Assembly (NCBI RefSeq): GCF_016902415.1
Contig: NZ_JACJLV010000001.1
Span: 1-64,000 of the forward strand
From: Mordavella massiliensis
Lineage (GTDB): Bacteria; Bacillota; Clostridia; Lachnospirales; Lachnospiraceae
Direction of reading: 5' to 3'
DNA: 64,000 nt
Made by a program: the position numbers and the translations under genes. The notes beneath the pieces were generated by a model that saw only the letters and a program-made list of their open reading frames with translations, had not been told where the DNA came from and searched no databases. Of this stretch, positions 3,236-28,126 are shown one piece after another (position 1 is the stretch's first letter; each line of letters opens with the position of its first letter).

Positions 3236-3316
3236 TTTCATACCTCCCGTGTGCATCAGCCGCACATACTTACAAATATTTTACACTATTTTCAGTCATT
3301 TGGCTACTCTTCATTC

Positions 3317-3345: not shown

Positions 3346-3378
3346 AAGAGTATCTACAAAACAAAGGAGATTCATACT

Positions 3379-3666
3379 ATGGACGAGTATATGACAGTCA
3401 CACTGACCCTGGATAACGATGAAGTAGTGGAATGCGCCGTCCTCACCATCTTTTCTGCAGGCGAAAAGGATTATATCGCCCTTCTTCCCCTGGGAGACGA
3501 CGGCGAACCGCAGGATGGCGATGTATATCTTTACCGCTACATCGACCACAGCGAAGAAGAGCCGGAGCTTGAGAACATCGAGGATGACGACGAATACGAA
3601 GCCGTCGCTGATGCGTTTGACGAGTGGATGGACACCCAGGAGTTTGAAGACTTAGACGAGGAATAA
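3379..3666 (+). CDS. DUF1292 family protein
   Basis: This 95-residue, strongly acidic protein starts MDEYMTVTLTLDNDEVVECAVL and carries IFSAGEKDYIALLPL, the conserved core of DUF1292 (YrzB family). The C-terminal third is a run of Asp and Glu. The family is widespread in Firmicutes and its function is unknown. The ribosome site AAAGGAG is well placed. It is the only backbone gene on the plus strand in the first 43 kb. Its last 15 bases overlap the 3' end of the converging helicase gene, so the two 3' ends share codons. Confidence 0.85.
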   Translation: MDEYMTVTLTLDNDEVVECAVLTIFSAGEKDYIALLPLGDDGEPQDGDVYLYRYIDHSEEEPELENIEDDDEYEAVADAFDEWMDTQEFEDLDEE

Positions 3667-5490
3667 TTCCTCTGCAAAACGGGAAGGACGCTGTTCCTTT
3701 CCGTTTTTTTCTTTTACATAGCTGATGGTCAGTTTCTTCTGCGCCCTCGTCATGGCCACATAGAAAAGCCTCCGCTCTTCTTCGATCTCTTCCGGTGTTT
3801 TTGCCTTTTTATAAGGAATGCACCCTTCATTGGCGTGGATCAGAAATACGGTATCGTATTCCAGCCCCTTCGCGCCATGGACCGTCATCAGCCGGATGCT
3901 GTTTTCGTCAGCCCCTTCCTGTTTCTGCGCGCCAAGCGCTTTCCGGTAATCCTCCACATGGGCGAACCAGCTTTCCATATCTTTGTAATGCTTCGCGGCC
4001 TGCTGGATCTCATCCAGCGCCCCGAAAAGTTCCTCTTTGTCCAGTCCCTTAAACTCGGCGTACCCTTTCAGGAATTCATCATATCCCATGCTTTTTCGGA
4101 TGTACTGAATGGCCGCAAACGGCGCTTTTTCGTTCAGCATCTTCATATCCCACTCCCACTGGTCGACCCGGTCCATCATCCACTCTTTGTCACAGTAAAA
4201 GTTCCGGAGCGATTCATAGGAAATGTCCGGCTCCTTCATGGCGTCTCTTCCGATATAGCGGTTGGGACGGTTTGCAACCTGCAGGAAATATTTCCTCTGC
4301 CTGTCTCCCATTGCCAGATGAAAATAACTGCTGATATCAACGGCAGTCATATGGTCATAGAGATTGCGGATCTTCTCCCGCATGAAAAAAGGGATCTGAT
4401 ATTCCGTCAGTGTCTCGGATAAAGCCCTTGCGTCTACATTGGTCCGGTACAGGACTGCGATCCGGGAGGGGCGGATGCTTTGCTCCAGCCGTTTTTTGAT
4501 CTCCTCTGCCACATATCTGCTTTCTTCCAGTGGGTCTTTTACCTCCTGCACATGGACTGTTTCCCCGGTTCCTGCCAGAGCCCGGATCTTCTTATCATAC
4601 CGGTTCCGGTTCCTTCCTATCACCCGGAGGGCGCTTTTTACAATATTACCGGTAGAACGGTAATTGATATCCAGAAGAACGGTTCTGGCCCCCGGATAAT
4701 CCTTCATAAACTGCCGCATCACGCCGGGCCTGGCTCCCCGGAACCCATAGATGGACTGGTCGTCGTCTCCCACCACGAAGAGATTATCCTCCGGCGAAGC
4801 CAGCATACGGATCACGTCATACTGTACCTGGTTGATATCCTGAAATTCATCCACCAGGATGTACCGGAATTTTTCCTGCCATTTTTTCAGGATATCCGGT
4901 CTTTGCAGGAAAAGATCCCTGCAGCGGATCAGCATATCTTCAAAATCGATCTTATGACAGCTGTCTTTTCTGGATTCATAGGCCTGGTAGATCTTGAGAA
5001 ACCTGTCTTTTTCACAGGATGCCGGAGAAAAGGATTCTGCCGGGACCGCCTGATTCTTCAAAGAGGCGATCTCCTCTGCCAGTTCCCGGATCTGTTCTTT
5101 CTGTGATTCCGCTTCTCCCATTTCTTCCCATCCGGCGTCCTCCATAGAAAGGCGGATCAGCTCCGCCTTCTGGTCCTCCGTCAATAGATCCATCTGCCGG
5201 ATCCCGTACGCCCACTTCAGGATGCCATAATAGATCCCATGGAAGGTGCCAAAGGTCACCGTTCCCTGCCCGGTTTTTTTCAGGGCGAAGAAACGCTCCC
5301 TCATCTCTCTGGCAGCATACTTCGTAAAGGTAATGACCAGAATTTCTTCTGGCCTTACCTTATACGTCTGGATCAGATATTCAATTCTTTTTACAATGGT
5401 AAGAGTTTTCCCGGAACCGGGACCGGCAAGGACCATACATGGTCCCCGGTGATGGGCGACCGCCTCTGTCTGAGCCTGATTTAAACTCAT
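3652..5490 (-). CDS. UvrD/Rep/PcrA-family ATP-dependent DNA helicase
   Basis: A superfamily 1A 3'-5' helicase of 612 residues. Visible motifs in order are the Q-motif region LNQAQTEAV, Walker A GPGSGKTLTI (motif I), FTKYAAREM (Ia), LVDEFQDIN (II), GDDDQSIYGFRGA (III), LDINYRST (IV region), MTVHGAKGLEYD (V) and YVAMTRAQKKL (VI). All are intact, so the enzyme should be active. It is about 100 residues shorter than typical PcrA and has a reduced 2B region, so it is probably a paralogue and not the housekeeping pcrA. It starts 10 bases after gltX, suggesting one transcript. The start ATG follows GGGGAA. Confidence 0.9.
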   Translation of the reverse strand: MSLNQAQTEAVAHHRGPCMVLAGPGSGKTLTIVKRIEYLIQTYKVRPEEILVITFTKYAAREMRERFFALKKTGQGTVTFGTFHGIYYGILKWAYGIRQMDLLTEDQKAELIRLSMEDAGWEEMGEAESQKEQIRELAEEIASLKNQAVPAESFSPASCEKDRFLKIYQAYESRKDSCHKIDFEDMLIRCRDLFLQRPDILKKWQEKFRYILVDEFQDINQVQYDVIRMLASPEDNLFVVGDDDQSIYGFRGARPGVMRQFMKDYPGARTVLLDINYRSTGNIVKSALRVIGRNRNRYDKKIRALAGTGETVHVQEVKDPLEESRYVAEEIKKRLEQSIRPSRIAVLYRTNVDARALSETLTEYQIPFFMREKIRNLYDHMTAVDISSYFHLAMGDRQRKYFLQVANRPNRYIGRDAMKEPDISYESLRNFYCDKEWMMDRVDQWEWDMKMLNEKAPFAAIQYIRKSMGYDEFLKGYAEFKGLDKEELFGALDEIQQAAKHYKDMESWFAHVEDYRKALGAQKQEGADENSIRLMTVHGAKGLEYDTVFLIHANEGCIPYKKAKTPEEIEEERRLFYVAMTRAQKKLTISYVKEKNGKEQRPSRFAEELFLV

Positions 5491-5500
5491 GAAATTCCCC

Positions 5501-6961
5501 TTACTTTGTCAATAATTCAATGCCTTTGCGGATCCGTCTAAGAGACTCTTCTTTTCCAAGGATCTCCATGATCTCTGTCGCGCCACCCGGCGTATTCTGT
5601 TTGCCGGACACAGCGGTCCGCACCGGCCACATTACAAATCCTGTCTTTACCCCTGTCTCATCCACATATCCTTTCAGAAGTTCAAACAACGCGTCGTTGC
5701 TGAAGTCTTCCTGGTTTTCCAGAAGCGGCAGGACATCCTGCAATACCTTCAGAGAATTTTCCTCATTGGTCTTCATCTTTTTATGACAGTACATGGATAC
5801 GTCATAATCCGGCAGTTCTTCAAAAAAGTCGATCTGTTCGGTAATATCCGGGAAGATCTCAATCCGGGTCTTTACCAGCGCCGCGATTTTCTTCAGATCA
5901 CAGTCTCTTTTTACCACAGCTTTGATGTAAGGCTCTGCCATTTCGTAGAACCGGTCAAAATCCATGGCTTTCAGATATTCGCCGTTCATCCATTTCAGTT
6001 TCACAATATCAAAGACAGCCGGAGACTTGCTCATGTGGCGGTAGTCAAATTCTTTCACCAGTTCTTCCAGAGAAAAGATCTCCTTTGTTCCTTCCGGACA
6101 CCAGCCAAGCAAAGCCACATAGTTTACCACTGCTTCTGTTACAAATCCCTGCTCGATCAGATCTTCATAGGAAGAATGTCCGCAGCGCTTACTCAGTTTC
6201 TTGTGGGTCTCATCGGTGATCAGCGGACAGTGTACATAAACCGGCACCTCCCAGCCGAACGCCTCATAGATCTTGTTGTACTTGGGCGCAGAGGACAGGT
6301 ATTCATTTCCCCGCACCACATGAGTGATGCCCATCAGGTGATCGTCAATAACATTGGCAAAATTATAGGTCGGATATCCGTCGGACTTGATCAGGATCAG
6401 ATCCTCCAGTTCATTGTTGGGAACCGTGATATCTCCGTAGATCTCATCGTGGAAGGTGGTCTCCCCTTCTGTCGGCATGTTAAAACGGATTACATAGGGC
6501 TTGCCTGCCGCCAGGTTTGCCTCTACTTCTTCTTTGGAAAGTCCCAGGCAGTGTTTGTCATACACCACGATCTCCGGGCCGTCTCCGTCCGCAACCTTTG
6601 TTTTCAGAGAATCGAGACGCTCTTTGTCGCAGAAGCAGTAATAGGCATTTCCCTGCTCGATCAGCTGCTTTGCATATTCCAGATACAGGCCGGACTGATT
6701 CCGCTCACTCTGTACATAAGGGCCCACGCCGCCGTCTTTGTCCGGTCCCTCATCATGAACGAGACCTGTCTCTTCCAGCGTATGATAAATGATATCCAGC
6801 GCCCCTTCCATAAAACGCTCCTGGTCCGTATCCTCAATCCGGAGAATGAAGTCTCCTCCCTCGTGCTTTGCGATCAGATACGCGTACAGCGCTGTTCTTA
6901 AATTTCCCACATGCATCCGTCCTGTCGGACTGGGCGCAAATCTTGTTCTTACTCTTTTCAT
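5501..6961 (-). CDS. gltX: Glutamate--tRNA ligase
   Basis: A class I aminoacyl-tRNA synthetase of 486 residues that charges tRNA-Glu in the cytoplasm. The N-terminus [20 protein letters not shown] carries the HIGH-type signature as HVGN. The KMSKS-type loop appears as HKKLSKRCG near residue 255. The discriminating segment [11 protein letters not shown] is intact. The length is normal for bacterial GluRS. The start overlaps the stop of the preceding ThrE-like gene by four bases (ATGA), indicating translational coupling in a run of exporter genes, gltX and helicase. Confidence 0.97.
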
Positions 6962-7437
6962 TGTTTCTCTCCTGTTCTCATCTTTTCTGTTTTTCTATTT
7001 CTCCAATACTGTCCCTGAAAGACCTCTCTTGGAATGGAAACCACAAATGCTATGCCAAGGACGATCGCAAAGGCGATCTTCAGAGCCCCCAGCCCTCTTT
7101 CCCCTGCCAGAGCGATCTGGTCGGTCACAAGGTAATAGGCCGTATAATAAACACCGGCTCCCGGCACCAGAGGAAAGATACCGGATATCAGGAATACCGT
7201 GATCGGGCACTTCATCCGCACGGTCAGCATCCTGGATATAAATACTACCACAAACGCGCCGACAAAAGAAGCGATCGCAGCGGAAGAAAAGTTTAAAATA
7301 AAAATATATGCCAGCCAGCCTGCCGTTCCGGTCAGTCCTCCTGCCAGATAATATTTTCTCGGGACGTTAAACAGTACGGCAAACGCAACCGTTCCAAGAA
7401 ACGGGCAGATCAGGTTCGCGGCTACATTTCCCATCAT
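6958..7437 (-). CDS. ThrE-type threonine/serine exporter, small subunit
   Basis: A 159-residue membrane protein with four to five hydrophobic segments. It contains the [18 protein letters not shown] segment typical of the ThrE_2 (DUF3815) half of split threonine/serine exporters. It overlaps the stop of the upstream ThrE-domain gene (7434-7437) and the start of gltX. The two ThrE halves together presumably form the exporter. The substrate is inferred from the Corynebacterium ThrE family and not shown by the sequence. Confidence 0.85.
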
Positions 7438-8666
7438 ACCGTGATCCCTCCAATCATATTATTATAGATACTCAGCATCGTACCAACGCCGATCGCGATA
7501 TACACAAATACCATCAGAGCGTCGATCATCCGCACAGTACCTGACAAAAAGTCACTGTTCGCAATATCCCGGATCGCATTGGTAAATGCAAGCCCCGGCA
7601 CCAGAGGCATGATCGCGCCCACGATCATACCGTCCAGCCTCGCAACCCCAAGGGCCGGAACATGCAGCGCAAGAACCGCCAGCAAAGTGATCAGCGCGCC
7701 GCCCACAATATTTACGATAATCTTTGACATATGCAGCTTCTTTGCAAATAATACCCAGAAATACAACAGGCATCCGATCCCAAACGCGACAAGGCTTTCA
7801 TTCACAGACGCGCCCAGAAGGTATCCGAATGCCGCGCTGCCCACGCCGGCTGCAAGGACCTGAAAATATCCTTTTTTCGGCGGGATCTGTTCAATCGCAC
7901 GTAATTTCTCCCACGCCTCGTCGATACCGATCTTTCCTGCGCTGATCTCCCTGGACAGCGCGTTGACTTCGGTAACGATTCCCAGGTGCGCACCGGAAAG
8001 CGGGACATTTTTCACCTTGGTATAGACTTCATTCATTCCCTTTTCCGCCGTAATAAAGATCGCATGGCTCAGGGTAAAGGAATCCACATAATCCACGTGG
8101 AATCTCTTACAGATACGGTCCATAGTCTCTTCTACACGGAAGATCTCCGCCCCGTTCTTTAACAGGATACGGCCCGCCTCTACCGCCAGATCCACCACCT
8201 TTTTGACGTCCAGTTCCGAATCCAGCTTCTTTTTCAGATAGATCATGTCCGTCAGGCGGATCCCGTTTTCATAAATGGGTTCCTCATAGTTGTCTACAAA
8301 GAAATTTGCCACAATATGGGAATTCACAAACCCGCAGGCATGATAAAATCCCAGGGTATCCGGACTGTTGCCGGTCCCCACATACATCAGATCGTACCGG
8401 CCGCTGTAATGTTCGCACAGGAAATGGATCATGTACCTGCCATATCCCTTTCGCTGTTCTTCTGGTATGGTGGATATATTTTTTAATTCACACTTCCCGC
8501 CGCCAAGATCCGCCACCACGGCAGCCGTGACCGCCCGTCCCTGATCGTAGAGCACATACATCTCGCCCTGATCCAGGTATCTGTCGATCATACTTTCCTG
8601 CGGATCGGCCAGAAGCAGCATTTCCATATAGTCTCTTTTTTTATCTGTGATCCGTTCAATATCCAT
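7434..8666 (-). CDS. GNAT acetyltransferase fused to ThrE-domain exporter subunit
   Basis: The N-terminal 150 or so residues form a GNAT domain (EEQRKGYGRYMIHFL is the acetyl-CoA loop; LGFYHACGFV follows). They run in frame into a ThrE/DUF1212 domain with the conserved cytoplasmic segment AGRILLKNGAEIFRVEETM and about five membrane spans ending in [15 protein letters not shown] prefer the ATG at 8666 (MDIERITDKK), preceded by CTGGAG. The ATG at 8702 lies inside TATAAT and has no ribosome site. The partner ThrE_2 subunit overlaps downstream. Fusion of an acetyltransferase to a transporter half is unusual. It might acetylate an exported amino acid or sense acetyl-CoA, which is speculation. Confidence 0.8.
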   Translation of the reverse strand: MDIERITDKKRDYMEMLLLADPQESMIDRYLDQGEMYVLYDQGRAVTAAVVADLGGGKCELKNISTIPEEQRKGYGRYMIHFLCEHYSGRYDLMYVGTGNSPDTLGFYHACGFVNSHIVANFFVDNYEEPIYENGIRLTDMIYLKKKLDSELDVKKVVDLAVEAGRILLKNGAEIFRVEETMDRICKRFHVDYVDSFTLSHAIFITAEKGMNEVYTKVKNVPLSGAHLGIVTEVNALSREISAGKIGIDEAWEKLRAIEQIPPKKGYFQVLAAGVGSAAFGYLLGASVNESLVAFGIGCLLYFWVLFAKKLHMSKIIVNIVGGALITLLAVLALHVPALGVARLDGMIVGAIMPLVPGLAFTNAIRDIANSDFLSGTVRMIDALMVFVYIAIGVGTMLSIYNNMIGGITV

Positions 8667-8719
8667 AACGGTCAACTCCAGTCTTTCATCAATCCCATAC
8701 ATTATAGCACCGGCTTCTC

Positions 8720-8761
8720 AAAAAGAAAAGAGACATCCTGACAGATATCAAGATGTCTCTT
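8720..8761 (-). terminator. Rho-independent terminator of the grd operon
   Basis: The perfect 10-base stem AAGAGACATC/GATGTCTCTT (8728-8737 with 8752-8761) is followed on the minus strand by a T-rich tract. It lies 31 bases after the grdD stop and closes the glycine reductase operon. Confidence 0.85.
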
Positions 8762-8792
8762 CTTTTAAACAATTTTTACAAATTGGCTGAAA

Positions 8793-9947
8793 CTAGCCGA
8801 TGTATCCGGCTTTTTTCAGTTCTTCTTCCGCCTTTGCAAGGTTGGCGTCTGATACACGGATGATCGGTCCGGTACAGCCCATGCCGCTCTCTGCGTAGAT
8901 ATTGATCTTCCACAGGCATTTTACTGCATCGTCCAGATCCATGACCTCGATACCCGGGATCTGTGCGGTTACGATCTCCTTCGGAGGTTCTTTTACCTCT
9001 TCTTCTGCAGCCGCCGGTTTGGAAGCAGCTTTTACGGAATCCAGGATCTGCTGGAATCCTGCCTTCTTAGCCGCCTCAAATTCCTTCTTTGCAACTTCAA
9101 AGACTTTACCTCTTACCAGCTGCGCCGCGTAGCGGATCGCATTGGCAATAACCGGAGCACCGGATGCTCTGGATACGATCATGACTAACTGCTCATATCC
9201 TTCTCCAATACCCGGGCCATAGCCGTAACCGGTTGCCTCAAAGCTTCCGCCTGTATTTGCAGAAGACAGCATTTTCACCAGGATATTTCCGGTCAGAGAG
9301 TCTGTTACCATGATATCCGGGGATGCCTGAAGAACATCATTTCCTCTCATCACGCATCCGCCGTCTGCACGGCTGGACTCTGCAAATGTGATATCATATC
9401 CCTGATCTTTTAACTGCTTTAACGCCTTCTCTGTCTGACGTGCGCCGTCTACATTCAGGATACCAACGGTCGGGTTCTTCTTTCCGCATGCTTTCGCTGC
9501 GATCACACCATATACCGCGTTCTTTACCATACCTTCGATACGGTCCGTACTGGAGGTACCTGTGGTATTGGCGATGTACATTTCTTTTCCTGTGGCCGGT
9601 GTCACACAGCGTCCTACTGTGGATACACCGATGGGGAACGGGAAGTGCATCGTAACGGCAGCGTCGATCTCTTTATTCTTCAGCATCTCTTCCATCTTGT
9701 CGTGGCCCTCTTCATCGTTTGCCACTTTGATGGTTGTAACGCCTTCTGCTTCCAGAGTTCCGATGTAGTATACATCAATGCCGTCTTTTGCAGCTTCAAC
9801 AGCCGCTGCCATGGAGTTTTCCTCTCCATGCTCGCTTCCCATACCGGTCAGCGCAACCTTCGGTCTTTTGCCGAAGCTTCCTGTCTCTAACCCTTCTGCC
9901 ATCTCCATAAATGTGGTGGCGATCATTTTCTCGATATTATTTGCCAT
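8793..9947 (-). CDS. grdD: Glycine reductase complex component C, subunit alpha (GrdD)
   Basis: GrdD forms protein C of glycine reductase with GrdC. Protein C takes the carboxymethyl group from the selenoprotein GrdA and releases acetyl phosphate, conserving energy for the cell. The start at 9947 gives MANNIEKMIATTFMEMAEGLETG, matching the family N-terminus; GTGs further upstream are less likely. The fold is PlsX-like. The C-terminal segment ESGMGCTGPIIRVSDANL carries a conserved Cys in the region reported to be involved in acetyl transfer. The gene begins 12 bases after grdC and is the last of the operon. Residues about 320-340 form an Ala/Lys/Glu-rich linker. Confidence 0.93.
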   Translation of the reverse strand: MANNIEKMIATTFMEMAEGLETGSFGKRPKVALTGMGSEHGEENSMAAAVEAAKDGIDVYYIGTLEAEGVTTIKVANDEEGHDKMEEMLKNKEIDAAVTMHFPFPIGVSTVGRCVTPATGKEMYIANTTGTSSTDRIEGMVKNAVYGVIAAKACGKKNPTVGILNVDGARQTEKALKQLKDQGYDITFAESSRADGGCVMRGNDVLQASPDIMVTDSLTGNILVKMLSSANTGGSFEATGYGYGPGIGEGYEQLVMIVSRASGAPVIANAIRYAAQLVRGKVFEVAKKEFEAAKKAGFQQILDSVKAASKPAAAEEEVKEPPKEIVTAQIPGIEVMDLDDAVKCLWKINIYAESGMGCTGPIIRVSDANLAKAEEELKKAGYIG

Positions 9948-9959
9948 ATTCACCACCCC

Positions 9960-11498
9960 TTACTCTGCCATCAGGGTTGCAGCAAAATCTTTCATTGCTT
10001 TCGCAATGAGTCCCTTTACTTCTTCTTCGGATACTCCTGCAGCCGCCTCTTCTTCTGCTGCTGTATTTCCATGGATCACAAAAGATACACCGTCAAACAG
10101 GTTGGTCATACGTCCAAGGAACAGACTTCCTTTTCCGATGATCATAGCGTTTTTGATCTTGCCTTCCTTGATATCCTCAGCAGCAAATCCTACATAAGGA
10201 ACTCCGGACGGAATGTGTCCCTGTGTGGGAGCCCATCCAGTCAGGCCGTGCTCTTTTGTAAAGTTTGCAAGTTCTTTTCTGTCAAGCTCGCCTCTCTTTA
10301 CAGCAAGAGCTGCGATCATCTTGTAGTTGGCAAGCGGAACATCTCCTGCTCCTGCCGGTTTTGTGATATCCGGGTTCTGCATTTCCGGAGAGAATTTGTC
10401 GATATCTGTGATCTTCATTCCCACTTTGTCAAGCGGATCAGCAACCAGGCTGCCGATTACGTTCTGCGGAGCAGAGCCGGTACCAACACTGTGGCGTCCC
10501 AGCATTCCAAGATCGATCTCCGGGCTTACGCCGTCATTTTCAGAAATGATCACGCAGAAACCGCCCAGGCAGTCTTCCAAGATCGGAAGGCCTTTCTTGA
10601 TGTGGTCTTTTCCGTTCATACCAAGTTTTGCGGTACAGCCTCCGGCTGTAACAGCAACAGTCTTGTATGCTCCGGATTTTACCAGTGCAGCCGCTTCGAT
10701 CAGCGCATGGGTCGGAGCCGCGCAGAATCCTCTTGCGTCAGATCCGCTGGCGCTTACAAGGCCTGCAACCTCTGCTGCAGCCTTTGCGAAGTTTCCGCCG
10801 CCTCTCTGGTTCATATCGCCGCAGGCTTCCTCTGCACAGTCGATGACATACTCAACGTCTGCCTTGTCGATTCCTGCATTGCGTACGCCGTAAAGAAGAG
10901 CCAGTACGCTGGATGCCTTGCTCATCAGGTTCTCATGCATTACATGTGCGGACAGGTTCACGTCGATATCGTGAGCCGGTTTTACACATCCGACCAGCTG
11001 GTTTTCAAAATACAGCGGCTCTGCATGATCGTCATTGATCAGAGCTTCGATTTCGGAAAGCTCTACGCCGTCCTCTGTCAGTGCAACAATATCTTCTGTA
11101 ATGATCGGGTTCTTTGCAAACTGATCTTTGTATTTTTCAACGAATCCCTTCTCCAGTTTTACAACCTCGAACATGTCGCTGGCCTGTACCAGGAACAGGA
11201 ACTCTTCCTCCGGCATGATCTCACCGTATTTTCCGTAACGGTCTGCGCCTTCCATCTTCTTGTCGTACCACGGGAACTCAACTTCTGCAAGCTGATCCGG
11301 GTGTACGTTTCCGATATAGGTCTGGTTCGGCCAGTAAGCAACTACGTCCTCATAGGAACGAAGATGATTCGGCACTTCTTTAAGATACTCAGAATCAGGA
11401 TTTACGATTCTTTCTGTTGTCTGTGTGGTTCCGTTGTATAAAACCATATCCGGAGTATGTACTAATACATAGCTTGCTCCCTTAATTACACTGTTCAT
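9960..11498 (-). CDS. grdC: Glycine reductase complex component C, subunit beta (GrdC)
   Basis: The 512-residue GrdC is the FabH-like beta subunit of protein C. It works with GrdD to convert the Se-carboxymethyl intermediate on GrdA to an acetyl thioester and then acetyl phosphate. The N-terminus MNSVIKGASYVLVHTPDMV and the segment GLVSASGSDARGFCAAPTHALIEAAALV are typical. The length matches the family. It is separated from grdA by 172 bases holding two stem-loops, and from grdD by 12 bases. A 456-codon open frame on the opposite strand is a codon-bias shadow. Confidence 0.95.
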   Translation of the reverse strand: MNSVIKGASYVLVHTPDMVLYNGTTQTTERIVNPDSEYLKEVPNHLRSYEDVVAYWPNQTYIGNVHPDQLAEVEFPWYDKKMEGADRYGKYGEIMPEEEFLFLVQASDMFEVVKLEKGFVEKYKDQFAKNPIITEDIVALTEDGVELSEIEALINDDHAEPLYFENQLVGCVKPAHDIDVNLSAHVMHENLMSKASSVLALLYGVRNAGIDKADVEYVIDCAEEACGDMNQRGGGNFAKAAAEVAGLVSASGSDARGFCAAPTHALIEAAALVKSGAYKTVAVTAGGCTAKLGMNGKDHIKKGLPILEDCLGGFCVIISENDGVSPEIDLGMLGRHSVGTGSAPQNVIGSLVADPLDKVGMKITDIDKFSPEMQNPDITKPAGAGDVPLANYKMIAALAVKRGELDRKELANFTKEHGLTGWAPTQGHIPSGVPYVGFAAEDIKEGKIKNAMIIGKGSLFLGRMTNLFDGVSFVIHGNTAAEEEAAAGVSEEEVKGLIAKAMKDFAATLMAE

Positions 11499-11561
11499 TG
11501 GTTTTCCACCTTTCTTAAATTCATAAATATAAACTGACCCGCAGTTTATGCTTATTTATAC

Positions 11562-11607
11562 AAAAAGGAGCAGCCCATTTCTGGGAACATACTTTGGGGC
11601 TGCCCCT
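11562..11607 (-). terminator. Intra-operon terminator/attenuator between grdA and grdC
   Basis: An 11-base stem with one G-U pair (11597-11607 with 11566-11576) is followed on the minus strand by TTTTTG. It is a classic intrinsic terminator placed inside the operon. Partial termination here would yield more grdE-B-trxBA-A message than grdCD message. Confidence 0.75.
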
Positions 11608-11628
11608 TTCCTAAAATCTTTACAGGGG

Positions 11629-11659
11629 ACGCAAGGCCTTTTCCAGGTCTTACGTCCTA
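11629..11659 (-). other. Second stem-loop downstream of grdA
   Basis: GGACGTAAGACC pairs with GGCCTTGCGTCC across a short loop, just after the grdA stop. With no U-tract it is more likely an mRNA-stabilising or processing hairpin than a terminator. Confidence 0.5.
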
Positions 11660-11670
11660 TTTACAACTGA

Positions 11671-12132
11671 TTAAAGCTGCTCTCTGATTGCGTTCATCTC
11701 ATCACAGATGTCATCAATGTCAAGAACCATCTCCATCATGCCTACCTGCTCGTCATAAACTTCCGGATCAAACTCTTCTTTGATCTCTGGCTCACATACG
11801 TGATATACCGCGAGTCCAAGCTGGACCCCTGTCAACGGACCTGCGAAAGTAGGATCACCAAGGGTTACAGTCTCAGCTGCAAGACCTGCAGCTTCGCCCT
11901 CTGCAGCACCAAGAACTACTACTAAGTTCTCTGCGCCGTATTCCTCAGCGAATTCTTTTACTCTCTTCTGGTTTTCCAGATCCATTGCGCCTGCGCTCGT
12001 TCAGACGAAACACTCCGTGGAGGAGAATACTACTTCAGCACCGGCAGTCTTTACGCATTCTGCGATAGCCGGTCCCGGTACTCCGTCACGGTCTCCGATA
12101 ATTATTGCTTTTTTGCCTTCTAAAATAGCCAT
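11671..12132 (-). CDS. grdA: Glycine reductase selenoprotein A (UGA at codon 44 read as selenocysteine)
   Basis: GrdA is the small selenoprotein that carries the carboxymethyl group between proteins B and C. From the ATG at 12132 the frame reads [20 protein letters not shown], then STECFV, an in-frame TGA at 12001-12003, then [20 protein letters not shown] to a stop at 11671, in all 153 residues. The C-F-V-U motif is the known active site, with U44 at the family position. A conventional gene caller sees only the part after the UGA. The stem TCTGG/CCAGA (11967-11980) downstream of the UGA could belong to the SECIS, but its distance is about 20 bases. No selenocysteine machinery genes lie in the window. 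Confidence 0.95.
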
Positions 12133-12204
12133 AATTATGCGACTCTCCTTTCTTGTGGTTTTACAGGTTGTAATTTATGATTTAGAAAAACATCCGCTCT
12201 GGTC

Positions 12205-12522
12205 TTAGATGTATTTCTTAATCATCGCTTCAATGCTTTCCGGTGTGCAGTCATCTTTTACCAGCTCTTCTACTTTTTCTCCATCTTTGTAGATCGCCAT
12301 AACCGGAAGTCCAAGCACCTTCTGTGCGATAGCCAGACGACGTGCTTTTGTGGTGTTCAGAGATGTGAATTTTAACTTGTCGCCATAAGTATCAGCGAAC
12401 TCATGTACCTTCGGCATCAGAGCCTGGCACGGTACACATCCGTCACCGTAAAAGTCAACGAATACATATCCGTCTGCTTTTAACACTTCGTCTTCAAATG
12501 TTTTCTTATCTAAGTCTAACAT
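12205..12522 (-). CDS. trxA: Thioredoxin (glycine reductase electron donor)
   Basis: A 105-residue thioredoxin that supplies electrons to regenerate the selenoprotein. The start at 12522 follows AAGGAGG; an ATG 9 bases upstream overlaps the ribosome site. The active site is C29-V-P-C32 in GDGCVPCQALMPK, not the usual CGPC. This type of variant is seen in thioredoxins encoded inside grd operons. The rest of the fold (VFVDFYGDGC, KVLGLPVMAIYKDGE with cis-Pro) is normal. It sits between trxB and grdA. Confidence 0.93.
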   Translation of the reverse strand: MLDLDKKTFEDEVLKADGYVFVDFYGDGCVPCQALMPKVHEFADTYGDKLKFTSLNTTKARRLAIAQKVLGLPVMAIYKDGEKVEELVKDDCTPESIEAMIKKYI

Positions 12523-12567
12523 TGGAATCATCCTCCTTATTTGTAAATAAATAATAGTTGTTACTTC

Positions 12568-13512
12568 CTAGAAGTAGTCAGACATGCTTCTTTCTACCTG
12601 GACTGCTGCGATCGCTCCGTCAGCAGCTGCGGTCACTACCTGACGCAGGCTCTTTACACGGACATCTCCTGCCGCATATACGCCCGGGATGTTGGTGTGC
12701 ATGTCATCATCTGTCTTGATGTATCCTCTTTCATCCATGTCGATGATGCCTTCAAACGGCTGAGTGTTCGGAACAGTTCCGATAAATCCGAATACGCCGA
12801 ACATTCCGTCTTCTTCATCTGCCTCTACTGTTGTGATCTCGCCGGTCTTAACATTTTTAACCTTCATCCACTGCAGGATGTCGTCTCCACCGACTTCTTC
12901 CACAACAGAATCCCACATGAAGTGAAGCTTCGGATTCTTGAATGCTTTCTCCTGAATGGATTTTGCTGCACGAAGTTCATTTCTTCTGTGGATGATCGTT
13001 ACTTTTCTTGCGAACTTGGTCAGATACATAGCCTCTTCTACTGCGGAGTCTCCGCCGCCGACTACATATACTTCAAAGTCCTCAAAGAAGTTGGCATCAC
13101 AGGTAGCGCAGTAGGAAACACCCTTGCCCATAAATTCTGCTTCGCCCTTGCATCCGATCGGTCTTGCGTGAGCGCCTGTAGCGATGATCACGTTCTTTGC
13201 CTGATACTCGGCTTTTTCGCTCTTCAGAACTTTTACATCACCATTCAGCTCTACTTCCTTGATCGTGTCAGATACGCGCTCTGCTCCGAATTTCGCAGCC
13301 TGCTCTGTCATTCTCGCGATCAGGGACGGTCCGGACTCTCCTTCTACGATCTGTCCCGGATAGTTCTCGATCTCATCTGTGATCGCGATCTGTCCGCCGT
13401 CCTGTCCTTTTTCAATGATCAGAACAGAGAGGCGGCTTCTTCCTGCATACAGGCCTGCCGCTAAACCGGCAGGACCTGCACCCAGGACGATAACATCATA
13501 AATCTTGCTCAT
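12568..13512 (-). CDS. trxB: Thioredoxin reductase (NADPH)
   Basis: A 314-residue low-molecular-weight flavoprotein that passes electrons from NAD(P)H to TrxA. It has an FAD-binding GxGxxG (VLGAGPAGLAAGLYAG), a redox centre C135-A-T-C138 (SYCATCDANFFED), a nucleotide-binding VVGGGDSAVEEA and the C-terminal GVYAAGDVRVKSLRQVVTAA. All parts are intact. Its placement in the grd operon dedicates it to glycine reduction. Confidence 0.96.
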   Translation of the reverse strand: MSKIYDVIVLGAGPAGLAAGLYAGRSRLSVLIIEKGQDGGQIAITDEIENYPGQIVEGESGPSLIARMTEQAAKFGAERVSDTIKEVELNGDVKVLKSEKAEYQAKNVIIATGAHARPIGCKGEAEFMGKGVSYCATCDANFFEDFEVYVVGGGDSAVEEAMYLTKFARKVTIIHRRNELRAAKSIQEKAFKNPKLHFMWDSVVEEVGGDDILQWMKVKNVKTGEITTVEADEEDGMFGVFGFIGTVPNTQPFEGIIDMDERGYIKTDDDMHTNIPGVYAAGDVRVKSLRQVVTAAADGAIAAVQVERSMSDYF

Positions 13513-22636: not shown

Positions 22637-23419
22637 TTAGCATATTCCGGCAGTCTTGTCAATCCTCCGGTATTCTTTTTCCCATTGTTCCAGCTTTTCC
22701 TCCGGAAGATCCGGGTCGATCTCCCGCCTTACTGTCTGCACGCTTTCTCTCACCACCGGGTCCATCGTAAGATAAGCCGGATTACCAGACAGCATCTTCA
22801 CATATTTCTGCTCCGGAAGCGCCCGGCTGCAGCAGTAGAGATAAGCCTTCAGCATATCCGCGTCTTCACAGATCGCGTATGCCTGCTCATACATCCTGGC
22901 CGCCTCCTCATAGAGGAACAGCCGGCCGTAGGCTGCTCCCAGGCAGGCATATACCTTGCCGTAAAAGGTCTTGTCAACCGAATCGTCCCGCTCGCCATGG
23001 ATGATCGACTGGTACACAAGCACTGCAGACTCATATTCCTTGCTCTGCATCAGACTGTCCGCTTTGTGCTTCTTGCGCTCCACATCCTTCTGGTTCTGGA
23101 GACGCTCCAGGATATTCTGGATCCGGTTGATATCGGACTGGGCATAGATCGTAGACTCTCTTAAAATCGTCAGGATAAACTGCTCCATGGAGCAGTTCTT
23201 CCGCAGCTCCTCCCGCAGATGTTCCGACAATTCTTCCATATCCAGCTCTCTTCCGATCCAGTCGCAAAGCTGCTGATTGATGATCGTATAGTCGATCAGA
23301 TACAGGTTGTTGCAGATATAATAACAGAGCTCTTCAATGGTGTAGATCTTCATATGAACCCTGGAAATCACATAGGGTTGTCTGGCTCTCTTTTTATGAC
23401 ATAGAATTAAACTGCCCAT
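22637..23419 (-). CDS. TPR-containing protein of the DUF5716/DUF5717 gene set
   Basis: The 260-residue protein has no signal peptide. An N-terminal segment MKIYTIEELCYYICNNLYLIDYTII looks like a conserved start domain. It is followed by a coiled-coil-like region and TPR-like helices (ESAVLVYQSII, ACLGAAYGRLFLYEEAARMYEQAY). The ATG at 23419 has an excellent TAGGAGG but overlaps the 3' end of the upstream gene. The ATG at 23353 fits the domain start, so the true start is uncertain. The stop and start overlap with the DUF5716 gene implies coupled translation. I do not know its function. Confidence 0.75.
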   Translation of the reverse strand: MGSLILCHKKRARQPYVISRVHMKIYTIEELCYYICNNLYLIDYTIINQQLCDWIGRELDMEELSEHLREELRKNCSMEQFILTILRESTIYAQSDINRIQNILERLQNQKDVERKKHKADSLMQSKEYESAVLVYQSIIHGERDDSVDKTFYGKVYACLGAAYGRLFLYEEAARMYEQAYAICEDADMLKAYLYCCSRALPEQKYVKMLSGNPAYLTMDPVVRESVQTVRREIDPDLPEEKLEQWEKEYRRIDKTAGIC

Positions 23420-24677
23420 GGATGCCTCCTAATTTTAATATCTTCTCCGTGCAGAAATCCGTGGCAGGGAAAAATTCCCCGAATCCCACATCCTTAAATG
23501 TGAGCCGGCAGGTTTTCTCATCCAGGAACATCACGTCGATCTGGATCCTAAGAGAATAATCCTTTCTGTCCGGAAGCCCTTCCAGCGACACCGTTTCTAC
23601 CTGCAGTTCCTCGCCGGCCAGAGATTCCACATGGATCTCTATATCAGAGGTGTCCTCCAGGATCACCTCCCACTGGCCGTCCGCCTCATACCAGTGGGTG
23701 CCCCAGGACACAATGGGATGCCATCCTTCCTGTCCCCCCACACGCATACGCAGGCAGATCTGTTCCGTCATTTTCGTCTCATCCAGGTATACCGGTCCGT
23801 CATCCAGCGCAAAGGATCTGCGCATCGATGTATAGCAGGCTCCCTTGCTGTACAGGTTATTTCCCAGAAACGCTCTTCTTCCGTTGCACAGAACTTTCAG
23901 GGAATTGGGATACCAGTTGTTCTCAAATCCTTCCCCGGTAAGGAATACGGATGAGATCACCTTCTTATCAAAAACATTCTGGATAAAGGATTTGAACTGT
24001 TCGTCCGCATCCTTGGCCTTATCTACATTCAGCACCGGATAGATGGCTTCCAGCTCCTTCATTTTTGCACTTGCCACCTCGTCTACCGTTACAAACAGAT
24101 CTCTGCCTCTTCCGGTCACCGTGTTCAGTTTCCGGAGCATATAAGCGCGGATCTCCTGCGCGTCGCAGTAAAACAGCGCGGCCTCATACTGCCAGAGTTC
24201 TTTGGGCTGGTAGAACATATACTGGCAGAAGCTTTCCTTATAATCCTGCACGTGGATGTTCTCTTTGGGAATCCCGATGTGCCTTCCGATCCCTTTCAGC
24301 ATCTTTGACACGTCAATGTCCGTATAAGGAACCGAAAATGTGATCTCTTCGATCTCCTCAAACTCTTCCAGCGTCAGGCTGATGAACTTGGACAGAAGCC
24401 AGACCGCGTCATGGTCTTTTTCTCCGATATGGATCTTTTCCCGGCGCACAGCCTTCTGATAAAGGTCTGTGACCACTTCACCCTCGCGGACCACTAAAAG
24501 CTTCTTTGCCTCTTTTCCATAGACCCACCGCTCATTATAATACCCCAGCAGCACCGGGATCTGATAATTCTCGATCGCCGTCTCCAGTGTCTCCGGTTCT
24601 TCTTTTTTCTCATCATAGTAGCTGATCTGACAGTTTTTCTCATTCAGATCATACCCCAGAATACTTCCCCTTTGCAT
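23394..24677 (-). CDS. DUF5716 family protein, Hsp70/actin-like
   Basis: From the ATG at 24677 (after GGAGG) the protein starts MQRGSILGYDLNEKNCQISY. This resembles the phosphate-1 loop of Hsp70/actin ATPases, where GIDLGTTNS is usual. It is followed by LLGYYNERWVYGKEAKKL, reminiscent of the Hsp70 GxxAKxQ segment, and later by VFLTGEGFENNWYPNSLKVL and FLGNNLYSKGACY, placed like the adenosine-binding region. The C-terminal 130 residues look like a beta-rich domain. I recall the family as DUF5716. The ATPase-fold reading is my inference. It is sandwiched between a TPR gene and the DUF5717 gene, 12 bases from the latter. Confidence 0.75.
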   Translation of the reverse strand: MQRGSILGYDLNEKNCQISYYDEKKEEPETLETAIENYQIPVLLGYYNERWVYGKEAKKLLVVREGEVVTDLYQKAVRREKIHIGEKDHDAVWLLSKFISLTLEEFEEIEEITFSVPYTDIDVSKMLKGIGRHIGIPKENIHVQDYKESFCQYMFYQPKELWQYEAALFYCDAQEIRAYMLRKLNTVTGRGRDLFVTVDEVASAKMKELEAIYPVLNVDKAKDADEQFKSFIQNVFDKKVISSVFLTGEGFENNWYPNSLKVLCNGRRAFLGNNLYSKGACYTSMRRSFALDDGPVYLDETKMTEQICLRMRVGGQEGWHPIVSWGTHWYEADGQWEVILEDTSDIEIHVESLAGEELQVETVSLEGLPDRKDYSLRIQIDVMFLDEKTCRLTFKDVGFGEFFPATDFCTEKILKLGGIHGQFNSMS

Positions 24678-24689
24678 GAACACGACCTC

Positions 24690-27600
24690 CTAATATGTCT
24701 GGAAGAACTGCTCCGCCAGTCTTTCCTCTTCTTCATATTCCAGCATCGCCAGATGTCTTGCCGCAGGTCCTAAACACGCCATATCGTTAAGCTTCCCATA
24801 CTTTCCTGCCCCTACGGCGCTTTTCCTGTTGTCCAGGATCTGTTTGTCCGTTGTCCGGCTCTTTTTGCCTCTGATCTCCTGGAAATAGTAATTGACAGAC
24901 TCGTCGCTGTAGAGGATAAACTGCTTCACATACAGGTTCTCATACACCGGCATCAGAACTTCTGTATGATACCCCAGTTCCTCTCTCTTTCCTTTCCGCA
25001 CCTTGTAGAACATTTTCACCCTGCTGCCCGGCGCGGCCTGATATTCGATCATAGACTTATCATGGAGCTGGACCTCCCGGATCCATTCTTCTTTATACTG
25101 CAGATAAAACGGAAATACAATCTGCTTTTCACACATTTCCCGCAGCACCGCGTGGAGCACCTGTTCCACATCGGTCTGATAATCCTGGCCGGAATAAAAC
25201 TTCAAAAGAGCGATCTTGCAGATATCCGGCAGATCCTCCTTCTTGTCACATTCATTGGCAATGATCTCAAAGACGCTGCGCTCCAGTTTTCTTCCTCTGA
25301 CCACATACTCCCTTGCCGCATAGGCAAGATACGCCTGCTTCAGCCGGAAGTATACATTTCCGGACAGATAATAGTCCTCAAAAATCTTTTCTTCCTCAAA
25401 CAGATTTTCCGAGAAGACCATCTGTGTGATGATCCGTTCTCCCACCTTAAAGGCCGGGATCCCGTAATCCTGCAGCGCATGCCACAACGCTTTCATATCT
25501 CTGGTGGCTCCGCAGAAATAATTGGACAGATACATCAGAGTGACTTTATCGTACTGCTGTCTTTTAAACAGTTCAAAACACAGATAAGTCAGAAATTCAT
25601 CCTCTTCATAGTTGTCCTCCCTGATCCTGCGGCTGCAGAGACGGAAGACGTCCCTTTCGTCAAAGAGTTCCAGGCCTTTTTCCCGGATATTTTCAAAACT
25701 CAGTTCTTCTTTTTCCCGCTCCCGTTCCCAGATTCCTTCGGACGCCGCATATTTCCGGCACATATCCAGGAATCTCGGCTCATAGAATAACCGTCTGGTC
25801 TCATAGGCGATGGAGTCCGTATAGTGTCTTCCCTCTATTGACTCCCATACGATACGGGATTCTTTATCATAAAGACAGATCACCGCCCCGTTCTTTGGAT
25901 CATAGGGCACTCTCTGGCGGATCTGCCCGTCTTTTTCAATGACCAGCACGCAGTTCATGTTCTGCACCTTTGTGCGCACTTCATAGGCATAGCAGACGTC
26001 CCGCATGGCTTCCATGCGCTCCGCGTCCATCTCCTCTTCCGTACAGAACCGTTTATACAGGATCCTGAGAGACTCCGTAATGTGCCGCTTCAGGAGCTGA
26101 TCCCAGGTAAATTCCACCATCTGCTCCCGGTAGCTTAAGTAAAGATCTCCCGCCTGCTCCTCATAGGTCACCAGGTTCGCGTACAAAAGCGCGGCCTTTT
26201 TATAATTCAGCGTATTGCCGTGCATAAAGTACAGAAGGATCGACTTTGGAAGCGGTCCTTTTACATTCTCCTCATCCAGAGTCATCATATAATATTCATA
26301 AAGCTGGGCGATCTTAAGCTCTGCGTCCACCGCCCGCTGATACCACGCAAAATACCGTCCCTGGGTCTTATTTCCCTTGATCAGGAGGGTACAGATGGTA
26401 TTGAGGATCATAGGCTCGCTGTACATCTTGTAAACCCGCTCCAGGATCCGGAACATCGGCTCATGGAACCGTTTTTGCTGACTGACAAAGTTGGACACAT
26501 AGAGCGCCAGTTCTTTGGTCATCAGCCGGTATTTGGAAGCAAAGTTCAGCACCTGCAGTTCAAATGGTCCAAGCTTCTTAAGAAGGGTCGGCTTCTCCTG
26601 ATAACACAGATACGCCTCCAGGTAAAAGGATACGCTGTGGATCTCATATTCAAACTGCTGCTCTAATACTTCCAGCCTTTTGTAGGCATTTTTATATTTG
26701 GGATCCAGATTCAAAAGCATATATAAGAGCAGCCAGGAATCCTGATGCCTCATATAGGTTTTCCCGATCTCATCCAGCACGCGCTCGATATGGTTGCCCT
26801 GTCCCCGCACCAATGCCGTCAGATACAGGTAATAGCAGTTTGTGATGGGGTCTTTTCCGATGGCAAACCGGTTGTAATTGTAATTTTCCAGGATCCACTT
26901 TGCCTCCTCGGTCCGGTGTCCCAGAAGATAGATATTCGCCTGGTAAAGCTGATACATCTCGCTTAACGGATCCAGTTTCCGCAGGGTGTTCATCTTTTCC
27001 ACCGCGCCGTCCACCCAGGCGGATAAAGAGATCCGTCCCGCCACATAGCTTACATACTCTTTCAGGATCTGCGCCTGTAAAAGTTCCGGCAGCCTCCGGT
27101 CCTCATTGTAGTCCTTCTGGTTCTGCAGTACCTCGATCTCATAGGTAAGCGTCTCATAAGGCGTGATAAACCGGAGCTTTCCGAAGTTGCGTCCGCCATG
27201 GAGATACTCCGGACGGATCAGATACTCCACCTCATGGGTATTGCCCACAAAGTCCTCGGTGCTGATCTCCGACCTGCTGAGCCGGATAAAGGGTCCTTCC
27301 GCCTCGATCCGGATCGGCATATATCCCCAGGTATTTTTCATCAGGGTAAGCGTTCCCTTCGCCGGTTCCTCCACGTCCTCAAACAGCATTCCCTCGCCGG
27401 GAAGCGTCAGGAAAATGCATTCCTTCTGCTTGATCCCTACCAGGAACTCTTCCATAGCCTGGTCTCCCAGGGACCACTTGCGCATATTATCATAGAGATA
27501 AAAGATCCGCTCATTTTCATATTTCAGGATCTCATAAAACTCCCTGGAACGGAACAACCTGCCCGCCTCGGAAAAATCTTTGATGGCAAGCTTGCGGAAG

Positions 27601-28019
27601 TCGTCGGTACTCTGCACCTTTCCATAAGAGGTCATCACATACGGCTTTTCGATAATGGCTGTAAAGGAAAGCTCGTATTCACCTCCCGTGCAGACCACGG
27701 TAAACTTGCCTTCCTCCACATGTCCCGGCCGCAATCCCCGTCCGTCATACGTAAACTCCACCTTTGCGGGATTCCCTTCAAATCCCTGGTCTTTAAAATG
27801 CACACGAAAAGAAGACGGGTACACCAGTCCCCGTATCGTTCCCTTCGTGTCTGCTTTCATGGTAAAACTTCCCCTGTATACTTCCCCTTCCCCGATTATG
27901 AGAACCAGATTTGTTTCATCAAATGTGACATCAGGTCGTATTAACTGAAAGTCTCCTTTAGAAAATTTCTGGATTTTGTTCTTCAAGTCTGACACCTGCT
28001 TCTTTCGTTTGTTTTTCAA
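24690..28019 (-). CDS. DUF5717 family giant protein
   Basis: The 1,109-residue cytoplasmic protein has no signal or membrane segments. Residues about 1-320 are beta-rich, with immunoglobulin-like strands such as VLIIGEGEVYRGSFTMKADTKG and LRPGHVEEGKFTVVC. Residues about 320-950 are helical repeats with many YxxxL pairs. The end is again beta-rich (MIEYQAAPGSRVKMFYKVRKG). This matches my recollection of DUF5717, found next to DUF5716 in Lachnospiraceae. It is the first gene of the three-gene set, and about 107 bases with no visible feature separate it from marR. Function unknown. Confidence 0.78.
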   Translation of the reverse strand: MKNKRKKQVSDLKNKIQKFSKGDFQLIRPDVTFDETNLVLIIGEGEVYRGSFTMKADTKGTIRGLVYPSSFRVHFKDQGFEGNPAKVEFTYDGRGLRPGHVEEGKFTVVCTGGEYELSFTAIIEKPYVMTSYGKVQSTDDFRKLAIKDFSEAGRLFRSREFYEILKYENERIFYLYDNMRKWSLGDQAMEEFLVGIKQKECIFLTLPGEGMLFEDVEEPAKGTLTLMKNTWGYMPIRIEAEGPFIRLSRSEISTEDFVGNTHEVEYLIRPEYLHGGRNFGKLRFITPYETLTYEIEVLQNQKDYNEDRRLPELLQAQILKEYVSYVAGRISLSAWVDGAVEKMNTLRKLDPLSEMYQLYQANIYLLGHRTEEAKWILENYNYNRFAIGKDPITNCYYLYLTALVRGQGNHIERVLDEIGKTYMRHQDSWLLLYMLLNLDPKYKNAYKRLEVLEQQFEYEIHSVSFYLEAYLCYQEKPTLLKKLGPFELQVLNFASKYRLMTKELALYVSNFVSQQKRFHEPMFRILERVYKMYSEPMILNTICTLLIKGNKTQGRYFAWYQRAVDAELKIAQLYEYYMMTLDEENVKGPLPKSILLYFMHGNTLNYKKAALLYANLVTYEEQAGDLYLSYREQMVEFTWDQLLKRHITESLRILYKRFCTEEEMDAERMEAMRDVCYAYEVRTKVQNMNCVLVIEKDGQIRQRVPYDPKNGAVICLYDKESRIVWESIEGRHYTDSIAYETRRLFYEPRFLDMCRKYAASEGIWEREREKEELSFENIREKGLELFDERDVFRLCSRRIREDNYEEDEFLTYLCFELFKRQQYDKVTLMYLSNYFCGATRDMKALWHALQDYGIPAFKVGERIITQMVFSENLFEEEKIFEDYYLSGNVYFRLKQAYLAYAAREYVVRGRKLERSVFEIIANECDKKEDLPDICKIALLKFYSGQDYQTDVEQVLHAVLREMCEKQIVFPFYLQYKEEWIREVQLHDKSMIEYQAAPGSRVKMFYKVRKGKREELGYHTEVLMPVYENLYVKQFILYSDESVNYYFQEIRGKKSRTTDKQILDNRKSAVGAGKYGKLNDMACLGPAARHLAMLEYEEEERLAEQFFQTY

Positions 28020-28126
28020 AAAACATACATATACTAAATTATAGCATTGTTTGCGCAGCTATGGCAATGCCGGACACAGAATTTATTTACGGAAATTATG
28101 GAAAATCCGCGTCCGCGGCCGGTCTG

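Follow-up and report, generated by a model that had tools for sequence, protein, structure and literature searches.

What do three tightly coupled genes do when their products include a giant protein and a smaller one from families named only as domains of unknown function, together with a tetratricopeptide repeat (TPR) protein? The question is raised by a 64,000-nucleotide (nt) stretch of the Mordavella massiliensis genome (the window; contig NZ_JACJLV010000001.1, positions 1 to 64,000), in which the interval 22637-28019 is filled exactly by three genes on the minus strand, encoding a DUF5717 protein, a DUF5716 protein and the TPR protein. An earlier interpretation made from the letters, which we call the sequence-only reading, had seen in them an Hsp70-like ATPase, a TPR protein and a very large scaffold that looked like a chaperone or assembly machine specific to this bacterial group. 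Our own answer, held with moderate confidence, is that the three proteins form a stable complex, the reduced core of a multi-Hsp70 chaperone or assembly machine. It rests on the identity of DUF5716, on a larger operon found elsewhere in the order and on the conservation of the set in Lachnospiraceae.

DUF5716 is a divergent Hsp70, composed of a nucleotide-binding domain (NBD) and the beta part of the substrate-binding domain (SBD-beta), with no lid. When a profile of 32 DUF5716 members was compared with the PDB, six of the seven matches were DnaK (best whole-sequence E 5.7e-4), aligned colinearly over two stretches, one at the start of the NBD and one in SBD-beta. Direct profile comparison with hhalign gave E 1.9e-7 against the DnaK of the same genome versus 0.44 against its MreB-like protein; a shallow alignment (A3) reached only E 0.0024 against DnaK. 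The predicted model (predicted local distance difference test, pLDDT, 79.4; predicted TM-score, pTM, 0.75) was built with 62 sequences that share 59-89% identity with the window protein and gave Foldseek matches with E values down to 5.2e-17, and 49 of the 50 matches listed were Hsp70-class proteins or their complexes. The corresponding TM-scores were only 0.43-0.56 to the query, with a large root-mean-square deviation (rmsd), which we attribute to a different placement of NBD and SBD-beta. In VIA the top match was a chain of the ribosome-associated complex (RAC), 5mb9_B (Z 21.3, rmsd 4.0 Å, 282 residues), with DnaK and Hsp110 rows tied; DnaK and Hsc70 NBDs aligned to the model range ~3-291 with Z ~20 and rmsd 4.1-4.9 over 269-286 residues. 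The helical lid (SBD-alpha) is not seen in the model, whose last elements are strands of SBD-beta followed by a short tail of low confidence, and we read the protein as lid-less because it ends after SBD-beta.

The window protein has no match to PF00012 at E values up to 1, and its single-sequence PDB search was uninformative (RNase H, E 0.07). Two order-level orthologues from outside the family score above the curated cut-off for PF00012 and above that for PF18980, and they therefore tie DUF5716 to the Hsp70 family by sequence too; a very divergent orthologue of 412 amino acids (aa) in locus L195 matches neither. The motifs on which the sequence-only reading had based an Hsp70/actin-like assignment (GYDLNEKNCQIS, GKEAKKL and VFLTGEGF) are present in the protein. 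The actin-like core it had proposed to look for by structure prediction is supported, as one of the Hsp70 type, by the DnaK profile, hhalign, the predicted model, Foldseek and VIA.

The word ATPase in the same reading fares worse. The column of the catalytic Lys (K70) holds Lys in none of the 32 aligned members, the phosphate-2 loop has GGG in none, and the E171 column, which is less certainly aligned (Q144 or D145), has Glu at Q144 in one. Orthologues in other families of the order (Hsp70b, below) likewise have K70, E171 or T199 in 0/13, and the first phosphate-2 Gly tested is retained in nine of those 13. The spacing between phosphate 2 and the adenosine loop is ~78 residues, versus 143 in the DnaK of M. 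massiliensis itself, which suggests that subdomain IIB has largely been lost. In Hsp70s, GrpE binds subdomain IIB. With the usual residues for ATP hydrolysis not conserved, DUF5716 has probably lost its ATPase function.

A larger form of the locus occurs elsewhere in the order. We hand-picked 20 loci outside the family from the matches of an order-wide survey and also read the adjoining stretches for 13 of them. In these loci the Ig part (~400 aa) and the solenoid part (~900 aa) of the scaffold are mostly separate genes, sometimes one, and are followed by Hsp70a (~559 aa), a GrpE-like gene (279-645 aa), Hsp70b, which is the DUF5716 orthologue (412-542 aa), Hsp70c (~545 aa), Hsp70d (~692 aa) and the TPR protein (~387 aa); some loci continue with a fourth, membrane-protein gene and with valS, which NCBIfam names in two of them. 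The GrpE-like protein has a long N-terminal extension, and the two tested match PF01025 (E 3.3e-13, above cut-off, and E 5.4e-12). Hsp70d, in the one tested, carries an HSP70 and then a von Willebrand A (VWA) domain (E 1.9e-10, above cut-off). Hsp70a is present in 18/20 loci; 16 of these 18 have the GrpE-like gene (one of them weak and cut by a contig end), and both exceptions are at contig ends. All four Hsp70s together with a GrpE-like gene are found in 12 of the 20, a count that includes an Hsp70c scoring 1013 bits (L188), a weak Hsp70b call (genome G558, 41 bits) and a split Hsp70d (G444). The incomplete loci L187, L191, L193, L202 and L203 end at a contig edge or at the end of the extracted stretch.

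The ten active-site positions aligned with DnaK are all intact in 18/18 Hsp70a, 12/12 Hsp70c and 11/11 Hsp70d. Since Hsp70b is degenerate beside these intact paralogues, the predicted pseudo-enzyme is already one subunit of the larger machine. The five operon Hsp70 tails that were read (two of Hsp70a, two of Hsp70c, one of Hsp70d) have no helical lid, and in Hsp70d the VWA domain stands in that place. The highest DUF5716 score from outside the family (E 5e-103, 494 aa) comes from genome G444 (L184/L204), which carries the full operon; its Hsp70d and TPR genes are split over several open reading frames (ORFs), through decay or assembly error. In two loci of family f77 (L190, 7471-13550, genome G618; L199, 8525-12419, genome G591), a gene that reads as PAS-GGDEF-like adjoins the solenoid gene.

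DUF5716 belongs to the Hsp70b branch of this operon, as computation shows. In a tree of 63 sequences, Hsp70a, Hsp70c and Hsp70d each form one clade (support 1.0, 0.994 and 1.0), and 18 DUF5716 and 12 Hsp70b proteins join in another (0.943) in which Hsp70b lies outside DUF5716; the tree and the counts of catalytic positions leave out the canonical DnaK of L203 and any copies that were short, split or truncated. The presence of valS downstream of both the reduced and the large loci also supports the orthology of the two forms. The simplest reading of these sequences is that in Lachnospiraceae three Hsp70s and the GrpE-like gene disappeared from the locus, and the scaffold, the pseudo-Hsp70, the TPR protein and in some cases the membrane protein were retained. 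The only PF00012 matches in the M. massiliensis genome are DnaK and the MreB-like protein; the profile was used for this genome only, as per-genome counts in the family were unusable, with DnaK matches often split in two. The reduced form is also found in one genome of another family (G593, L241, where the contig begins within the solenoid gene) and in a divergent genome of Lachnospiraceae itself (G440, L240), where no Ig gene was found.

Within Lachnospiraceae the set is close to universal. Among 200 genomes, one per genus, DUF5716_C is matched in 195 and DUF5717_N in 196, nearly always in single copy, and 193 have both, so the two are far from rare companions and the co-occurrence that the sequence-only reading had anticipated is borne out. 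Genomes G272 (93% complete) and G334 (98%) have a match to neither and are candidates for natural loss. The gene order was followed in 40 diverse family loci, hand-picked from the survey matches and from genomes of earlier surveys, with long contigs favoured and the odd loci L158-L160 included; a further 80 named loci are closest relatives only. The TPR gene follows DUF5716 in 40/40 (in L154 behind a small, probably spurious antisense ORF), and DUF5717 directly precedes DUF5716 in 37/40, which bears out the tight coupling and single order first seen in the window; L159 meets a contig end at this point. In L158 an inserted gene at 8355-9167, for a 270 aa membrane protein with several hydrophobic segments, separates DUF5717 from DUF5716. 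A fourth gene lies downstream in 24 of the 40 loci and encodes a coiled-coil protein, with two transmembrane-like (TM-like) segments in 18 of 21; its profile matches 92/200 family genomes (two of them weakly), and that of M. massiliensis is not among them. A gene with a valS signature occurs within five genes after DUF5716 in 8/40.

The class-wide survey of 245 genomes found PF18980 in nine, all Lachnospiraceae, and PF18984 in ten, the tenth being a short match below cut-off in another family of the class (G116, L020 1501-1746, where the match in a 206 aa ORF is confined to PF18984 positions 793-869, E 8e-5). A strict restriction to Lachnospiraceae, which these class surveys suggested, was overturned by the order-wide survey, in which PF18984 is matched in 94/196 genomes, 72 of them outside the family. 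The proposal of a chaperone or assembly machine thus gains from the descent of the set from a multi-Hsp70 operon with GrpE and loses its qualifier: 72 genomes of other families match DUF5717_N, and only the reduced form is specific to the group. Among viral contigs, 33 stretches matched the search pattern and none is a relative.

The predicted model of DUF5717 (pLDDT 81.0, pTM 0.43) begins with two Ig-like domains; a long helical solenoid follows, then a small beta domain and a second solenoid, with a further beta domain at the C-terminus. Because of the pTM of 0.43, the domains are better defined than their arrangement. The model supports the scaffold-like build that the sequence-only reading had seen in DUF5717, with beta-sandwich ends and a long helical repeat. 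The first Ig-like domain matches 7b0x_C of a FimC complex in VIA (Z 11.1, rmsd 2.0, 92 residues), and the second matches 4zmh_A (Z 10.9, rmsd 2.5, 98 residues) and the PapD-like domain 2e6j of HYDIN (Z 9.8, rmsd 2.2, 95 residues). The pair thus resembles PapD/ASH/MSP domains such as those of HYDIN, CEP192 and FimC, a match of fold without a Pfam profile match. Foldseek matches of the first solenoid are weak and include other solenoid proteins, among them Ski238 and NatA, and the DUF5717 profile was uninformative against the PDB (BepA, E 0.052). The window DUF5717 and those of some other genera lack PF18984 positions 780-875 (~95), which are present in most listed family members. The best TPR match in the TPR protein of the window falls below the curated cut-off; an order-level homologue matches TPR_2 at E 5e-26, far above it, and the TPR-protein profile (A5) matches designed TPR proteins, with E values down to 1.5e-34. 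The N-terminal domain, though conserved, has no convincing Pfam match.

In the complex that we propose, DUF5717 would be the platform, with its Ig domains and solenoids available for protein contacts, and the TPR protein would act as an adaptor. DUF5716 would be a fixed, non-cycling subunit whose SBD-beta may bind, with low affinity, a stretch of a partner or client, in the manner of Ssz1-Zuo1 in RAC, and the coiled-coil protein with two TM segments, where present, would anchor the complex at the membrane. The Hsp70s of the larger operon would dock on the same platform and their ATP-driven cycles would act on it; the Lachnospiraceae core would either work without ATP or borrow DnaK and GrpE. 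A bolder version, which we put forward tentatively and would not yet bet on, is that the order has a second dedicated Hsp70 machine, perhaps linked to the membrane. It would combine four lid-less Hsp70s (three catalytically intact and one degenerate) with a GrpE of its own, a VWA domain and a giant Ig/solenoid platform, and Lachnospiraceae would have stripped it to platform, degenerate Hsp70 and TPR adaptor, an ATP-independent and almost universal core complex.

Several observations weigh against the proposed reduced core. The phosphate-1 Asp is retained in 30/32 aligned DUF5716 members and the adenosine-loop Gly in 32/32; a Glu (E148) lies three positions past the E171 column of the MAFFT alignment in 27/32; and a basic residue is found two positions past the K70 column in 9/13 Hsp70b and 13/32 DUF5716 proteins. 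Given these residues, nucleotide binding, or hydrolysis by shifted residues, may still occur. The best single stretch in the match of the DUF5716 profile to DnaK has only E 0.064, and the DUF5716 node in the tree only 0.58 support. The parts of the operon can separate, since L190 and L199, two of the 20 order loci, have Ig and solenoid genes without any Hsp70 nearby, and L200 lacks Hsp70d and the TPR gene next to the rest of the operon. The J-domain signature HPD occurs in 0/64 Ig, solenoid, TPR and GrpE-like operon proteins, with overlapping loci counted twice. Within the family, seven of the 200 genomes lack a match to one or both of DUF5716 and DUF5717, and DUF5717 lies elsewhere in one of the 40 loci (L160). 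That the operon was reduced in Lachnospiraceae, rather than having grown in other families, is likewise something that we infer.

The retained residues are also what would speak for DUF5716 as an active, ATP-cycling Hsp70 with a changed active site, helped by general GrpE and DnaJ in a small stand-alone folding system. The fold and the presence of a general DnaK and DnaJ in the genome agree with this, as do the Glu and the often basic residue close to the lost catalytic columns; we nevertheless think it unlikely, given that Lys70, Glu171 and the GGGT loop are unconserved even in orthologues encoded beside intact Hsp70s, that most of subdomain IIB seems absent and that the model has no lid. The RAC chain at the head of the VIA matches, tied though it is with DnaK rows, invites a different idea, namely a nascent-chain, ribosome or RNA factor in which a pseudo-Hsp70 like Ssz1 of RAC or CnuD works on a platform of DUF5717 and the TPR protein. 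Passages of PMC11090510 describe CnuD as likewise a degenerate Hsp70 with helical repeats and propose that it binds RNA, and valS is next door in several loci. Yet the three proteins have no RNA- or ribosome-binding Pfam domain, valS is a housekeeping neighbour that is not among the neighbours read in the window, and the product of the fourth gene usually has two TM-like segments, so that we rate this idea as improbable as that of an active enzyme.

Somewhat less probable again is a defence or conflict system related to the Ter, GAP1-N2 or CoCoNuT systems with Hsp70, GrpE, VWA and TPR parts. In the tree, the three Hsp70s of a Ter operon from the same class are interspersed among the operon paralogues; a VWA domain is part of Hsp70d; and GAP1-N2 loci can hold Hsp70, GrpE and FNIII/TPR proteins (in passages of PMC7159879). 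Against this, DUF5716 is present in 195/200 genera of the family, nearly always in single copy, and PADLOC returned only two weak matches for the three window proteins, to Csm2 (E 0.042) and to a TPR model (E 6.8e-4). Strongly disfavoured, and in our judgement very improbable, is an actin-like cytoskeletal, division or secretion scaffold of the FtsA, PilM or MreB type that does not derive from Hsp70. It could appeal to the actin-like fold in general and to the membrane coiled-coil partner in 92/200 genomes; it has to face an SBD-beta colinear with that of DnaK, the hhalign contrast between MreB-like protein and DnaK and the two orthologues above the PF00012 cut-off. The actin/MreB/FtsA identity of DUF5716 was rejected on the E of 0.44 for the MreB-like comparison; the 50 best VIA matches contain no filament-type row, which excludes nothing by itself.

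Comparison with Merdimonas faecis (L058), the nearest of the named relatives, shows the window genes themselves to be real and intact and to evolve under purifying selection. The three proteins are 87-90% identical in amino acids and none of the genes has an internal stop. Purifying selection is indicated for all three because the changes concentrate at third codon positions (0.36-0.42 differences per site at position 3, 0.04-0.07 at position 2). The DUF5717 ORF (28019..24690) spans 1109 aa, with PF18984 at E 1.7e-212 and PF18983 at E 2.2e-95, and the DUF5716 ORF (24683..23394) spans 429 aa, with PF18980 at E 2.9e-104; both proteins exceed the curated cut-offs of these profiles, and NCBIfam has no match for any of the three window proteins. 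The DUF5717 and DUF5716 ORFs are separated by 6 nt. DUF5716 probably starts at ATG 24677, by sequence reading, and DUF5717 probably at TTG 27986, giving 1098 aa, since, with the promoter-like site ending at 28038, a ribosome site would hardly fit before 28019 and since 1098 aa is the length called in the M. faecis locus. That promoter-like site has 11 of 12 consensus bases, as a consensus match only, in a region with 13 such sites against 7.1 expected (Table 1).

Table 1. Features of the three-gene set in the window; DUF5717 domain residues are numbered from the 1109 aa ORF
Feature	Position	Strand	Basis or remark
Promoter-like site TTGCCA-18-TATAAT, TG before second hexamer	28038..28067	-	upstream of DUF5717
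DUF5717 gene	24690..27986	-	probable start TTG 27986; longer ORF from TTG 28019
DUF5717 first Ig-like (PapD/ASH/MSP-like) domain, residues 30-135	27615..27932	-	model
DUF5717 second Ig-like domain, residues 205-299	27123..27407	-	model
DUF5717 first helical (TPR-like) solenoid, residues 306-676	25992..27104	-	model
DUF5717 inner beta domain, residues 679-743	25791..25985	-	model
DUF5717 second helical solenoid, residues 748-983	25071..25778	-	model
DUF5717 C-terminal beta domain, residues 988-1063	24831..25058	-	model
DUF5716 gene	23394..24677	-	probable start ATG 24677; ORF open from GTG 24683
DUF5716 NBD-like part, residues 1-292	23802..24677	-	VIA to DnaK/Hsc70 NBDs
DUF5716 phosphate-1-like motif GYDLNEKNCQIS, residues 8-19 from ATG 24677	24621..24656	-	G8 in 32/32, D10 in 30/32 aligned members
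DUF5716 SBD-beta-like part, residues 307-415	23433..23759	-	colinear DnaK profile match, model, VIA
DUF5716 end/TPR protein start, overlap of 26 nt	23394..23419	-	ORF coordinates
TPR protein gene	22637..23419	-	260 aa; conserved N-terminal domain, then short TPR region
Best TPR match in TPR protein, residues 155-186	22862..22957	-	TPR_2 E 3.9e-4, below curated gathering cut-off

To the left of the set lies an amino-acid ABC transporter cluster and to the right a MarR-type gene, all named by sequence reading, and a tRNA-Gly; valS is not among the neighbours read in the window. A heat-shock regulon was considered and rejected: the controlling inverted repeat of chaperone expression (CIRCE), searched with up to three mismatches, was not found in the 64 kb window, which tests one type of heat-shock regulator only.

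Lachnospiraceae are named in the abstract of PMC3971600 among the families highly abundant in the human microbiome, and their biology has a clear gap in a near-universal, mostly single-copy set of genes from protein families to which no function is assigned. If our explanation is true, the order has a bacterial Hsp70 machine built from several lid-less paralogues, and Lachnospiraceae are a natural experiment: evolution took away the ATPases there and left the pseudo-enzyme in place. Two DUFs would thereby become a testable system, with the larger operon as its built-in comparison.

Among known systems, the Hsp70 chaperones (DnaK with GrpE; PF00012) share with DUF5716 the NBD fold and SBD-beta, and the order operon likewise has catalytically intact Hsp70s and a GrpE-like protein; DUF5716 differs in being without a lid, a conserved Lys70 and Glu171, the GGGT loop and apparently most of subdomain IIB. 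Passages of PMC7083937 describe Ssz1 of yeast RAC as an Hsp70 with a complete SBD-beta and no lid that binds ATP without hydrolysing it. Its outline is thus the same as that of DUF5716, whose leading VIA row is a RAC chain, DnaK tied, but the partner of Ssz1 is the J-protein Zuo1 at the ribosome, whereas the neighbours of DUF5716 are an Ig/solenoid scaffold and a TPR protein. The Ter operon mentioned above (L237, G168:C1:688500-708000, 2959-13304) has TerD and TerF-vWA genes followed by three Hsp70 genes, one of which scores 271 bits against Hsp70a, the next in the survey being a DnaK-sized ORF at 209; a 476 aa ORF between its second and third Hsp70 resembles GrpE very weakly at its C-terminal end (hhalign E 0.054). 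The 19.5 kb read there hold no DUF5717-type scaffold, and the genome is not among the nine PF18980 matches of the class survey. No TerD/TerF, GAP1-N2 GTPase or McrB/McrC was noticed by eye among the neighbours of our loci, for which no dedicated search was made.

A description of the operon was not found in the titles, abstract beginnings and passages of the papers listed, in lists of limited length, from the open-licence PubMed Central literature; the parts of PMC3971600 seen mention TPR gene clusters only in general, and those of PMC7824862 have no bearing on it. CnuD of CoCoNuT type III is, in passages of PMC11090510, a bacterial protein with a degenerate Hsp70-like NBD/SBD and helical repeats; it belongs to a restriction system with a McrB-like GTPase, whereas DUF5716 is a near-universal gene of its family. 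The GTPase-centric GAP1-N2 conflict systems, whose Hsp70- and GrpE-bearing loci occur also in Firmicutes according to passages of PMC7159879, share with the order operon the grouping of Hsp70 and GrpE with beta-domain and TPR proteins; they differ in their GTPase, none of which was noticed in the loci read here, though no profile search for GTPases was made. In the parts of the literature seen, CoCoNuT CnuD and the Hsp70/GrpE-bearing GAP1-N2 loci are the nearest published relatives in kind.

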